Assembly (NCBI GenBank): GCA_016278325.1
Contig: JADQCB010000007.1
Span: 1 to 64,000 of the forward strand
Length of the DNA stretch: 64,000 nucleotides
Source of the DNA: Actibacterium sp.
GTDB taxonomy: Bacteria; Pseudomonadota; Alphaproteobacteria; Rhodobacterales; Rhodobacteraceae
Direction of reading: 5' to 3'
The position numbers were made by a program, and so were the translations under genes. This document shows, in pieces, positions 22,256 through 34,939 of the stretch. The notes under the pieces were generated by a model that saw nothing but the letters and a program-made list of their open reading frames with translations, was not told the DNA's origin and made no database searches. The number at the start of each line of letters is the position of its first letter. Position 1 is the first letter of the stretch.

Positions 22256-23179
22256 ATGACAGGCCCCATGTTCACCGTCGCCGCGCTGTATCATTTCACC
22301 CGTTTCGACGATCCCGCGGCCTTGCGCCCCGGGGTGCTGGCGACATGCGAAAAGCTGGGGGTTCGGGGCTCTTTGCTGCTGGCGCGCGAGGGGATCAACG
22401 GCACCATTGCCGGCACGCCGGCCGCGATTCACGCGGTGCTGGACGCGGTGCGTGCGCTGCCGGGCTGCGGTGATCTGGACTGGAAGGAAAGCCGGTCTGC
22501 CGAAATGCCCTTCGGCCGCATGAAGGTGCGGCTCAAGCGTGAAATCGTTACGATGGGCCGGCCCGACATCGACCCGTGCGCACGGGCCGGCCATTACGTT
22601 GCGCCCGAGCGCTGGAATGCCCTGATTTCCGCGCCGGACGTGGCGGTGATCGACACGCGCAATGCCTATGAGGTGTCGATCGGCACATTCGCCGGGGCGA
22701 TCGACCCCGACACCGCGGCGTTTCGCGAATTCCCGCATTGGTGGGAAGAAAACAGGGAACGTTTTCACAACAAGCGGATCGCGATGTTCTGCACCGGCGG
22801 GATTCGTTGCGAGAAGGCGACCAATTTCGTGCTGGGCCAGGGGGTGGAGGATGTATTCCACCTCAAGGGCGGAATTCTGAAATACCTGGAGAGAGTGCCC
22901 GAGGCGCAAAGCCTTTGGCGCGGCGAATGTTTCGTGTTCGACGAACGGGTTTCGCTGGGGCACGGGCTGCGCCCGGGTCGGCATGAGCTGTGCCGCGCCT
23001 GCCGGCGCCCGCTGGCCCCGCAGGACAGGAACCGGCCGGAATACGAACGGGGCGTCGCCTGTCATCGCTGCGCGCATGAACATTCTCCGGCGCAGCGCGG
23101 GCGCTTTCGCGAACGCCAGCGGCAGATCGACCTGGCCCGGGCGCGCGGCCAGACTCATCTCGGCACCGGACGCGGCTAG
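22256..23179 (+). CDS. trhO: tRNA uridine(34) hydroxylase TrhO, rhodanese domain
   Basis: TrhO (YceA family) hydroxylates U34 of tRNAs to 5-hydroxyuridine, the precursor of mo5U/cmo5U. The 307-residue product has the N-terminal domain with [17 protein letters not shown]-like sequence (here [16 protein letters not shown]), then the rhodanese domain with [17 protein letters not shown] and the catalytic Cys179 in [13 protein letters not shown] Cys-rich tail follows (CRACRRP, then CHRC). The start could be 22256 or the Met at 22268; neither has a strong ribosome site. Confidence 0.92.
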
Positions 23180-29840: not shown

Positions 29841-29893
29841 GGAGGAGAAGGAAGCCGCGGGTCATGGGCCCCGCGGCTCGATCTGAATGCTGA
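29841..29893 (+). promoter_or_regulatory. coxC translation leader: distant ribosome site, 9-bp hairpin and mini-ORF
   Basis: The coxC ATG at 29887 has no Shine-Dalgarno directly upstream. A strong one (GGAGGAGAAGGA, 29841-29852) lies before a perfect 9-bp hairpin (29853-29861 with 29870-29878). The hairpin loop contains an ATG at 29864 that opens a nine-codon frame ending at TGA 29891-29893, overlapping the coxC start. Either the hairpin brings the ribosome site close to coxC, or translation of the mini-ORF couples into it. Both are inferences. Confidence 0.5.
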
Positions 29894-31023
29894 TCTACAG
29901 TTACGACATCCGACTGGTCCTGGCCTCGATCGCCATTTCGATGATGGCGGCGTTTACCGGCCTGGCGCTGACGCGCGGCATCGCGGGCCTGCCCGAGGGG
30001 CTGCGCCAGTTGCGCATCGCGATGGCCGCGATCGCGCTGGGGGGCGGCATCTGGTCGATGCATTTCGTTGCCATCCTGGCGATGCGCTTTCCCGTCGCTG
30101 TCTATTACGATGCGCTGACGACACTGGCCTCGGCGCTGATCGCGATCCTGTTGGCGGGCCTGGCCTTGCTCCTGATGCATTACGGGCAGCGGGGCCCGCG
30201 CAAGGCGGCGCTCGCCGGGGCGATCCTGGGTGCCGGGATCGTGGCGATGCATTATGTCGGGCTATCGGGAATCGAAGGCTGCCTGCCGATCTATGACCCG
30301 ACAGGCTTCGCTGTCGCGGGGGGGCTGGCCCTGGCGATGGGGATCGCCGCGATCCGCGTGGCCTATGCGCAGCGCAGCGGGCGCAACACGGTGCTGGCGA
30401 CCGTGATCCTGGGCGGTTCGGTCGTGGTCGTGCATTTCTCGGCGATGTACTGGACCGAATTCGCGGCCACCGCGAACCGCGCCCTTGCGGGGCATGTGAT
30501 GGGCAATTCGACAATCGCGCTGGCGGTGCTGATCTCGACCTTCGTGATCTCGGGGGCGTTCCTGATGTCGGGGGCAAGCTTTCTGTCTGCACCGGCTGCA
30601 ACGGCACGGGCCGATGCCGCGCAGGACGCGCCCGCGTCAGATGTGCCCGCGACCGACGCATCATCCGCCGCCCGGCCGGCCGCGGCCGAAATCCGCGTGC
30701 CCTATGAGCGGGACGGAAGCACCTTCTTCCTGCCTTCCGCCTCGGTCGTCGCGATCCGCGCCGAGGGGCATTACACGATCGTCTATACTGTCGAGGGCCG
30801 GGTGTTCTGCCCTTGGTCGATCTCCGAGGCGCAGCGGCGGCTGGCCTCGGGCACGACCTTCCTGCGGGTGCATCGCAGCTATCTCGTGAACACCGCCCAT
30901 GTCACCGGCTTCGAGCGGCGCAAGGACAGCGGGCAGTGCCTGTTCGAGACCGCCGGACAGCTGGAACGCGTGCCGGTGAGTCGCGCGCGCATCGCCGAGC
31001 TGCGCAGCGCGCTGGGGTTGTAA
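29887..31023 (+). CDS. coxC: MHYT-LytTR membrane sensor/transcription regulator CoxC
   Basis: The 378-residue protein has an N-terminal seven-helix MHYT module (residues 1-230) and a C-terminal LytTR DNA-binding domain (about 268-375, with FLRVHRSYLVN). MHYT-type motifs are MHF at 58-60, MHYV at 121-124 and a degenerate VHFS at 182-185. MHYT domains are thought to sense a diatomic gas or redox signal through metal. The same architecture occurs in CoxC and CoxH of the A. carboxidovorans cox cluster, and it lies directly upstream of coxMSL, hence the symbol. An in-frame TGA just before the ATG fixes the start. An Ala/Asp-rich linker joins the domains. Confidence 0.88.
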   Translation: MLIYSYDIRLVLASIAISMMAAFTGLALTRGIAGLPEGLRQLRIAMAAIALGGGIWSMHFVAILAMRFPVAVYYDALTTLASALIAILLAGLALLLMHYGQRGPRKAALAGAILGAGIVAMHYVGLSGIEGCLPIYDPTGFAVAGGLALAMGIAAIRVAYAQRSGRNTVLATVILGGSVVVVHFSAMYWTEFAATANRALAGHVMGNSTIALAVLISTFVISGAFLMSGASFLSAPAATARADAAQDAPASDVPATDASSAARPAAAEIRVPYERDGSTFFLPSASVVAIRAEGHYTIVYTVEGRVFCPWSISEAQRRLASGTTFLRVHRSYLVNTAHVTGFERRKDSGQCLFETAGQLERVPVSRARIAELRSALGL

Positions 31024-31031
31024 GCCGCATC

Positions 31032-31064
31032 TCGTGCACAAACAGGCGCCGTTCGTGAAAAAGC
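31032..31064 (+). promoter_or_regulatory. Direct repeats 21 bp apart upstream of coxM, candidate LytTR operator
   Basis: TCGTGCACAAAC begins at 31032 and TCGTGAAAAAGC at 31053; nine to ten of twelve positions match. The 21-bp period places both on one face of DNA and equals the spacing known for LytTR-domain regulators. coxC, just upstream, encodes such a regulator. A palindrome GGGAT-TG-ATCCC at 31099-31110 lies between these repeats and coxM. Confidence 0.45.
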
Positions 31065-31158
31065 CGCCGCCGCCCATGCGTCGAACGCCCTGACCTGCGG
31101 GATTGATCCCTAGCGTGGCCGCAACAGCGCGCAGGCGCGAAAAAAGGGAGGAGCGGGT

Positions 31159-32010
31159 ATGATCCCAGCAGCATTCGAATATCACCGACCGTCGGAATTG
31201 TCCGCAGTGATCGCACTTCTGAGCGAGCATGGCGACGAAGCGCGCGTGGTCGCCGGCGGGCACAGCCTGATCCCGATGATGAAGCTGCGCATGGCCGCGC
31301 TCGATCACCTGATCGACCTGCGCGACATCGCCGAACTGCGCGGTATCGAGGTCGGTGCGACGATCCGTATCGGCGCGATGACCACCCAGCACGAATTGCT
31401 GACCCATGCGGGGCTTGCCGAGGCCGCGCCGATCCTGGCCGAAGCCGCCCGCCAGATCGCCGACCCGCAGGTGCGCTATCTGGGAACGCTGGGCGGCAAC
31501 GTCGCCAATGGCGATCCCGGCAACGACATGCCGGGCCTGATGCAGTGCCTCGATGCGCGCTTTACCCTGACGGGCCCCGATGGCACCCGCGAGGTGGCCG
31601 CGCGCGATTTCTACGAGGCCGCCTACATGACCGCACGGGAAGATGACGAGATTCTTGTCGCCATCACCTTCCCGCGTCCCGGGGCCGGTCATGCCTATGA
31701 AAAGCAGAAGCGCAAGATCGGCGATTATGCCACCGCCGCCGCCGCCGTTCAGCTGGAAGCCGCCGACAGCAAGGTGAGCGCCGCCTCGATCGCGATGACC
31801 AATCTTTCCGACGTGCCGGTCTGGAGCGCGGCCGCCGGCGCGGCGCTGGTGGGCAGCGCCTGCGGCACGCCCGCGGTCGAGGCCGCCGTGGCCGCGATGC
31901 TGGCCGATATCGACCCGGTCGAGGACAGCCGCGGCCCCGTCGAGTTCAAGAAACATGTGGCCGCGACCGTGCTGCGCCGGGCAATCGCGCGCGCCTGGTC
32001 GCGCGTCTGA
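31159..32010 (+). CDS. coxM: Aerobic CO dehydrogenase, FAD-binding medium subunit
   Basis: CoxM is the flavoprotein of the (LMS)2 molybdenum CO dehydrogenase and passes electrons from CO to the quinone pool. The 283-residue product has the FAD pyrophosphate motifs AGGHS (32-36) and TLGGN (110-114) in [16 protein letters not shown] and [18 protein letters not shown]. It starts after GGGAGGAG, 135 bp downstream of coxC, and is followed by coxS after 14 bp. Order M-S-L matches known form I clusters. Confidence 0.95.
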
Positions 32011-32024
32011 GAGGGAGGAAAAAG

Positions 32025-32519
32025 ATGGCAGACAAGATACACCTGAAGATGACGGTGAACGGCCAGCCGGTCGAAACGCTGGCCGAGCCGCGCGAGTTGC
32101 TGATCCATGTGCTGCGCGAGCGGCTGGACATCACCGGGCCGCATATCGGTTGCGAGACCACCCATTGCGGCGCCTGCACCGTCGATCTTGATGGCAAGTC
32201 CGTCAAATCCTGCACCGTCTTCGCGGCCCAGGCCGATGGCGCCGAGATCACCACGGTCGAAGGGATCGGCAGCCCCGACAAGCTGCATGTCCTGCAGGAG
32301 ATGTTCCGCGAACATCACGGGCTGCAATGCGGGTTCTGTACGCCCGGCATGATCACCCGTGCCTGGCGGCTTTTACAGGAAAACCCGACTCCGAGCGAGG
32401 AAGAGATCCGCTTTGGCATGGCGGGGAACCTCTGCCGCTGCACCGGCTATCAGAACATCGTCAAGGCCATCATGGCCGCCGCCACCGAGATGAACGCCGC
32501 GAAGGAGGCCGCAGAATGA
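32025..32519 (+). CDS. coxS: Aerobic CO dehydrogenase, iron-sulfur small subunit
   Basis: CoxS carries two [2Fe-2S] clusters. In the 164-residue product the plant-ferredoxin-type cluster is bound by Cys43, 48, 51 and 63 ([16 protein letters not shown]). The second, helical-domain cluster uses Cys102, 105, 137 and 139 (QCGFCTPGM and [11 protein letters not shown]). All eight ligands are intact. The gene has GGGAGG upstream, and its stop overlaps the coxL start as ATGA. Confidence 0.96.
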
Positions 32520-34939
32520 ACGACCAGACCCCTCCCACCCGCGAAGAACGCACAGCCGCGCTCAAGGGGCTGGGCTGCGCCCGCAAGCGCGTCGAGGATG
32601 CCCGCTTCACGCAAGGCAAGGGCAATTACGTCGATGACGTGAAGCTGCCGGCAATGCTGTTCGGCGATTTCGTGCGCTCGCCCTATGGCCATGCGCGCGT
32701 CAAGTCGATCGACGCCTCGGCGGCGCTGGCACTGCCCGGCGTGATCGCGGTTCTGACCGCGAAGGACCTGGAGCCGCTGGGCCTGCACTGGATGCCGACC
32801 CTGGCCGGCGACAAGCAGATGGTGCTGGCCGATGGCAAGGTGCTGTTCCAGGGCCAGGAAGTCGCCTTCGTCGTGGCCGAGGACCGCTATGTCGCCGCCG
32901 ACGCGGTCGAGCTGGTCGAGGTCGAGTACGAGGATCTGCCGGTGGTCACCGACCCGTTCAAGGCGCTTGAGCCGAACGCGCCGGTGTTGCGCGAGGATCT
33001 GCAAGGTCAGACCGAGGGCGCCCACGGCCTCCGCCGCCACCACAATCACATCTTCCTGTGGGAACAGGGCGACAAGGACGGCGCCGAGGCCGCGATCAGC
33101 GAAGCCGACGTGGTCGCCGAGGAGCGCGTCTATTACCACCGCACGCATCCCTGCCCGCTGGAGACCTGCGGCTGCGTCGCCTCGATGGACAAGGTGAACG
33201 GCAAGCTGACGCTCTGGGGCACCTTCCAGGCGCCGCATGTCGTGCGCACCGTCGCCTCTCTTCTGTCGGGGATCGCCGAGCACAACATCCGCGTCATCAG
33301 CCCCGATATCGGCGGCGGCTTCGGCAACAAGGTCGGCGTCTATCCGGGCTATGTCTGTTCCATCGTCGCCTCCATCGTCACCGGCCGGCCGGTGAAATGG
33401 GTCGAGGACCGGATGGACAACCTGATGACCACGGCCTTTGCCCGCGACTACTGGATGGACGGCAGGATCGCGGCCACGAAAGACGGCAAGATCACCGGGC
33501 TGTCGGTGCATGTCACCGCCGATCACGGGGCGTTCGACGCCTGCGCCGACCCGACGAAGTTCCCGGCCGGGTTCTTCCATATCTGCACCGGCAGCTATGA
33601 CATCCCCGTCGCCTATGTCGGTGTCGATGGGGTCTATACCAACAAGGCGCCGGGCGGTGTGGCCTATCGCTGCTCGTTCCGGGTGACCGAGGCCGCCTAT
33701 CTGATCGAGCGGATGATCGAGATCCTCGCCCAGAAGCTGGGAATGGACGCCGCCGAGCTGCGCGCGAAGAACTTCATCCGCAAAGAGCAGTTTCCCTATC
33801 ACTCGGCCCTGGGCTGGGAATACGATTCGGGCGATTATCACACCGCCTGGGACAAGGCGCTGAAAGCGGTGGATTACGACGGGTTGCGGGCCGAACAGGC
33901 CGAACGGGTCGTGGCGTTCAGGCGCGGCGAGACACGGAAACTGCTGGGTATCGGGCTGTGCCATTTCACCGAGATCGTCGGCGCCGGCCCGGTGAAGAAC
34001 TGCGACATCCTCGGGATGGGGATGTTCGACAGTTGCGAAATCCGGATTCACCCGACCGGATCGGCGATCGCACGGCTTGGCACGATCAGCCAGGGCCAGG
34101 GCCACGCCACCACCTTTGCGCAGATCCTGGCCAGCGAGACCGGCATCCCGGCCGACAACATCACGATCGAGGAGGGCGACACCGACACCGCGCCCTATGG
34201 GCTGGGGACCTATGGGTCGCGCTCGACACCCGTTGCGGGGGCCGCCGCGGCGATGGCCGCGCGCAAGATCCGGGCCAAGGCGCAGATGATCGCGGCCTAC
34301 CTGCTGGAGGTGCATGAGGGAGACCTGGAATGGGACGTGGACCGTTTCGCCGTGAAAGGCGCGCCCGAGCGGTTCAAGACGATGACCGAGATCGCCTATG
34401 CCGCCTATCACGACGCGATCCCGAATATCGAGCCGGGGCTGGAGGCGGTCAGCTATTACGATCCGCCCAACATGACCTATCCGTTCGGGGCCTATATCTG
34501 CGTGATGGAAATAGACGCCGACACGGGCGAGCACGAGATCCGGCAATTCTATGCGCTGGACGATTGCGGCACCCGGATCAACCCGATGGTGATCGAGGGG
34601 CAGGTGCATGGCGGGCTGACCGAGGCCTATGCCATCTCGATGGGCCAGGAGATCGCCTATGACGAGATGGGTAACGTCAAGACCGGCACGCTGATGGATT
34701 TCTTCCTGCCCACGTCGTGGGAGACGCCGCATTACACCACCGACTTCACCGAAACGCCCAGCCCGCATCACCCGATCGGGGCCAAGGGCGTCGGCGAAAG
34801 CCCCAACGTGGGCGGGGTTCCGGCGTTTTCAAACGCGGTGCATGATGCGTTCCGCGCATTCGGCCTGACGCAGAGCCATATGCCGCATGACCAGTGGCGA
34901 ATCTGGAAGACCGCGCAGGACCTGGGCCTGCATGGCTGA
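32516..34939 (+). CDS. coxL: Form I aerobic CO dehydrogenase, molybdenum large subunit
   Basis: CoxL holds the Mo-S-Cu active site where CO is oxidised to CO2. The 807-residue product has the form I active-site loop [14 protein letters not shown] with Cys386, the ligand of copper, not the form II AYRGAGR loop of related hydroxylases. Gln238 (FQAPHVVR) and Glu761 ([11 protein letters not shown]) match Gln240 and Glu763 of the A. carboxidovorans enzyme with a constant offset of two. This supports real CO oxidation. The ATG at 32516 overlaps the coxS stop; longer frames upstream lie inside coxS. Confidence 0.97.

Follow-up and report, generated by a model that had tools for sequence, protein, structure and literature searches.

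A conserved triple repeat upstream of coxM as a probable operator of the MHYT-LytTR regulator CoxC

The window analysed here, the whole stretch of 64,000 nucleotides, contains a cox cluster in which Pfam matches give the gene order coxC-coxM-coxS-coxL-coxD-coxE-XdhC/CoxI type-coxG. The product of coxC (positions 29,887-31,023, forward strand) combines an MHYT domain (Pfam, 1.8e-24) with a LytTR domain (Pfam, 4.9e-16); the MHYT domain is a widespread gas sensor that has received little study. The gene ends with TAA at 31,021-31,023 and is separated by a spacer of 135 bp from the ATG, at 31,159, of coxM (31,159-32,010, forward strand; Pfam FAD_binding_5 and CO_deh_flav_C), encoding the FAD subunit of CO dehydrogenase. 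On the same strand follow coxS and coxL (32,025-34,939; Pfam), and the translated CoxL reading frame (32,516-34,939) contains the motif AYRCSFR, which we take to be the signature of form I CO dehydrogenase. The genome (99.76% complete) encodes this CoxC-type regulator, MHYT plus LytTR, adjacent to coxMSL as its sole LytTR protein; the PAS-LytTR protein expected of an RcoM operator has no counterpart here.

An earlier sequence-only reading of this DNA had noticed two copies of TCGTG(n)A(n)AA before coxM, starting exactly 21 bp apart. Both are present without a mismatch, as TCGTGcAcAA (TCGTGCACAA, 31,032-31,041) and TCGTGaAaAA (TCGTGAAAAA, 31,053-31,062), and the paired pattern, with up to three mismatches allowed, occurs twice in the window compared to a mean of 0.13 in shuffled sequences. 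The other occurrence (22,961-22,992, minus strand) is weak, having three mismatches and a score of about 7-8, lies far from the cox genes and is probably due to chance. Pattern matching across the organism's own genome with the longer form CGCANYTCGTG-N10-CGCANYTCGTG found its best match, with one mismatch, at 31,026-31,057, the next best having two mismatches.

The full element consists of three direct repeats with an RcoM/CoxC-type core, all on the forward strand. R1 (GCCGCATCTCGTGCACAA, 31,024-31,041; core CTCGTGCA, 31,031-31,038) lies directly 3' of the coxC stop codon, R2 (GGCGCCGTTCGTGAAAAA, 31,045-31,062; core TTCGTGAA, 31,052-31,059) begins 21 bp later, and a degenerate R3 (GCCGCCGCCCATGCGTCG, 31,066-31,083) follows after a further 21 bp. 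When the 127,966 window positions on both strands were scored using a matrix trained without the window sequence, R2 ranked first and R1 second, while R3 fell in the top 0.23% of positions. Compared separately with a shuffled null, R3 stands at the 96th percentile. R3 is thus weak yet in register, and the third copy is conserved among relatives. The span first proposed for the operator, 31,032-31,064, captured the two strong repeats without their CGCA halves and did not extend to the weak R3: what had been described as a pair is a triplet of longer units. The 12-bp palindrome also reported before coxM proved imperfect (GGGATTGATCCC against GGGATCAATCCC, with 5-bp arms and a 2-bp loop) and was rejected as a signal, since about 0.26 such motifs are expected by chance per 135 bp here.

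Footprinting of coxC-coxM spacers, proposed with the original observation as a means of checking it, came out strongly in its favour. The 152 loci collected yielded 138 spacers, of which 116 remained after removal of near-duplicates. Spacings between YTCGTG-like hexamers peaked sharply at 20 bp (88 cases) and 21 bp (49), the next highest count being 24 at 41 bp, the distance from first to third copy. A pair 20-22 bp apart is found in 111 of the 116 non-redundant spacers, and the element as a whole is present in 115, each scoring higher than any of 2,320 shuffled spacers. Expectation-maximisation fitting returned ttCGCAtTTCGTGCA for R1 and TTCGCATTTCGTGcAAA for R2, usually separated by 20 bp and sometimes, as in the window, by 21 bp, with a weaker third copy some 21 bp beyond R2. 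The unit consensus is TTCGCATTTCGTGCA, in three copies at intervals of about 20-21 bp upstream of coxM (R1, R2 and the weaker R3), R2 being the best conserved. In all, considerably more than a hundred related bacteria carry the site at the promoter of their cox clusters.

The position of the element follows coxM rather than coxC. A scan of 395 genomes of the family, 96 of which hold CoxC, with a pattern allowing two mismatches gave 38 sites with no more than one mismatch; every one was in a CoxC-containing genome and, on the coxM strand, lay 118-166 bp upstream of that gene. R2 lies at a narrowly constrained distance from the coxM start (quartiles 111-119 bp) whereas the gap between coxC and coxM varies from 111 to more than 400 bp, which identifies the site as an element of the coxM promoter and not of the coxC end. 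Where coxC does not lie beside coxM (in Roseovarius, Shimia and the genomes G008/G396, G281 and G329) the site is still found 100-130 bp upstream of coxM.

The site likewise accompanies CoxC in the genomes examined, with one exception. In a class-wide sample beyond the family used for training, all 11 coxM promoters from CoxC-containing genomes exceeded all of 200 shuffles; of the three negatives, two came from CoxC-free genomes and the third was the second coxM copy of a CoxC-containing genome. Among coxM promoters of the family sample without CoxC, two were negative, one (genome G110) was positive and two, at contig ends, were unreadable. Across both samples, promoters without an assignable CoxC thus comprise five negatives (four CoxC-free genomes and the second coxM copy) and one positive. 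In G110 (locus L219) the site, about 124 bp upstream of coxM, has a good R1 and a degenerate R2 and is accompanied by a consensus-like TTGACC; no CoxC was found in this genome, and the site is perhaps a relic left after loss of the regulator. G471, a contig-end case with a CoxC-like fragment only, also has the site.

A precedent exists in Afipia (Oligotropha) carboxidovorans OM5. According to a 2024 report (PMC11347149), the LytTR domain of its CoxC binds three direct repeats TTNNNGCN at PcoxB, a PcoxB::lacZ fusion in E. coli is repressed by CoxC, and CO relieves both the repression and the DNA binding; the report describes CoxC as the first transcription factor with an MHYT domain for which a DNA target was proven. 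That work supersedes the remark in the sequence-only reading that targets of MHYT-LytTR regulators are poorly described. Both cases have an MHYT-LytTR regulator in a cox cluster and three direct repeats, and the unit in the window is related to TTNNNGCN. However, the target is coxB in Afipia and coxM in the window, where the list of open reading frames contains no gene near coxC identified as coxB-like, and the published PcoxB repeats start 29 and 26 bp apart in contrast to the 20-21 bp of the conserved register.

We scanned the 18-kb OM5 cluster with a matrix trained without OM5. Three clear matches were obtained on pHCG3: the coxC-coxM spacer (L152:3726-3783) scored 18.3, the published PcoxB region (L152:686-745) 13.7 and the coxH-coxI region (L152:12938-13000) 10.5, the next score being 3.5. 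The coxC-coxM and coxH-coxI operators do not feature in the passages of that report considered here (PMC11347149). In the conserved register PcoxB reads TTCATGCG, TTGGTGGA and TTTGGGCA, with steps of 21 and 20 bp. Of the published repeats, repeat II corresponds to the third copy, TTTGGGCA, which scores only -9.5, and repeat I is no better than background (-34.6). The published repeat-I mutation alters a G whose conservation in R2 is 98.7%, lowering the score from 4.5 to -3.3, and this change can explain the lost binding of the mutant. On these sequence comparisons we suggest that the published PcoxB register needs correction to the 21/20-bp frame. A three-repeat CoxC operator at PcoxB was already known from that report; the present analysis adds the conserved consensus, the role of coxM as the general target, the additional Afipia sites and the suggested corrected register.

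Other LytTR systems offer partial parallels. The RcoM1 operator of Paraburkholderia xenovorans, as cited in PMC11347149, has three repeats TTCNNGCA with gaps of 12-13 bp; it shares with the present element a LytTR regulator of cox genes, the core TTCNNGCA and the period, although RcoM1 is there a soluble haem-based sensor and an activator whereas CoxC has a membrane MHYT sensor. The LytTR regulatory systems HdrRM and BrsRM resemble it in having direct repeats with gaps of about 12 bp just upstream of the -35 element, and differ in a separate membrane inhibitor protein, in pairs rather than triplets and in the repeat sequence (PMC6193735). AlgR sites, CCGTTCGTC, differ by one base from the R2 core CCGTTCGTG, but AlgR belongs to the response regulators, and the sites it binds do not form regularly spaced tandem arrays (PMC4064291).

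Downstream of the repeats, a putative coxM promoter may be formed in the window by CTGACC (31,090-31,095) and TAGCGT (31,111-31,116, both forward strand), separated by only 15 bp; a joint fit to the relatives placed the window's promoter elsewhere. The relatives have a -35-like element some 15 bp beyond the R3 core, followed at a distance of about 23 bp by an xAxxxT element. According to the joint fit, in which positions are fitted and not mapped, 63 of 115 promoters have a -35 element that begins 14-16 bp after the start of the R3 core, and about 10 bp separate it from the end of the last repeat; the spacing from R3 core to -35 is equal at PcoxM of Afipia and of Bradyrhizobium. Since looking for TTG at a fixed -35 offset produced no more than a weak peak, the joint fit is the basis for the promoter positions, which are called inferred. 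A generic scan of the window for sigma-70 promoters gave no consensus match, and the promoter element there is poor.

Conservation, co-occurrence with CoxC and persistence where coxC is unlinked all support the original proposal of a LytTR operator for CoxC between coxC and coxMSL. We put at about 0.9 the probability that the coxM(SLDE...) promoter has these repeats as its operator and that the LytTR domains of CoxC, the membrane-anchored protein encoded just upstream, bind them; judged from sequence, this gas-sensing membrane protein very probably docks at the 21-bp-spaced repeats, with coxM as the predicted first gene of the controlled operon. One LytTR domain would occupy each unit TTCGCATTTCGTGCA, within which lies the RcoM-type core TTCNNGCA. 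Units 20-21 bp apart, two helical turns, would present one face of the DNA, so that two or three CoxC molecules could sit side by side near the coxM promoter. CO sensed by the MHYT domain would alter the binding of CoxC to the operator, and CO dehydrogenase would consequently be made in response to CO. That R1 begins right after the coxC stop codon might instead suggest a terminator or another structure at the 3' end of coxC, or a chance similarity; the probability of this is negligible, given that 115 of 116 spacers stand above shuffles, that the distance to coxM is far tighter than the coxC-coxM gap, that the site remains with coxM where coxC is relocated and that a simple scan of the coxC-coxM spacer found no terminator-like hairpin. 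It is very unlikely, too, that a different regulator binds the site and that CoxC is a mere neighbour. Such a regulator would fit the retention of the site in G110, and CoxC binding in this genome is argued from sequence; against it, CoxC is the only LytTR protein of the genome, the site tracks the presence of CoxC and not its adjacency, and the Afipia ortholog binds a related triplet (PMC11347149).

The sign of control is more evenly balanced. We lean slightly towards repression of coxM by CoxC; in the sole ortholog experiment CO releases CoxC and lifts repression. The repressor role published for PcoxB sits awkwardly, however, with an operator that ends some 10 bp before the inferred -35, the typical layout of a LytTR activator: LytTR activators strongly favour repeats at just this distance (PMC6193735). 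With the same operator, CO-bound CoxC on R1-R3 might recruit RNA polymerase to a weak promoter, an alternative with somewhat less than an even chance. The recurrent spacing to the inferred -35 in 63 of 115 promoters, its equality at the Afipia and Bradyrhizobium coxM promoters and the lack of a consensus sigma-70 promoter by scan of the window all favour activation, as does G110, where the site occurs with a consensus-like TTGACC and no CoxC was found. Against it stand the CO-relieved repression of PcoxB::lacZ in E. coli (PMC11347149), and the fact that the promoter elements here are inferred only. More tentatively still, the alphaproteobacterial cox operator may have an activator layout on which CoxC is activating or has a dual role in native hosts, and is not a simple repressor. 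Were both the activator layout and the revised register true, the published PcoxB repeats would be in the wrong frame, and the promoters of coxM and, in Afipia, of coxI would be CoxC targets.

A precise conserved recognition unit makes CoxC targets findable by sequence, presents coxM as the general target and offers a testable correction to the single published operator; it also sharpens the question of whether CO turns on aerobic CO oxidation by lifting repression or by activation. Autoregulation was considered and rejected, as the Afipia cluster was the only locus to show an above-threshold site upstream of coxC.

More distant, plasmid-borne coxC loci (Shinella, Rhizobium, Sinorhizobium and Bradyrhizobium) encode CoxC proteins with about 30-34% identity to that of the window, and in every distinct case the top match falls in the interval that separates coxC from the following gene. 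In genome G018 a diverged CoxC (34% identity) is associated with a diverged CTCATG pair at 20 bp (L195:3160-3221, minus strand; score 4.9-6.9), possibly reflecting coevolution of protein and site. In Sinorhizobium meliloti pSINME01 (L237:4203-4995) the gene following that for a CoxC-like MHYT-LytTR protein is not coxM but a short gene annotated with an EAL domain; in a Rhizobium leguminosarum plasmid (L239:3821-4701) the CoxC-like gene is unannotated and possibly broken, and is likewise followed by a short EAL-annotated gene. At both loci three strong TTCGTGC repeats lie between the two genes, which suggests that the CoxC regulator family has another type of target.
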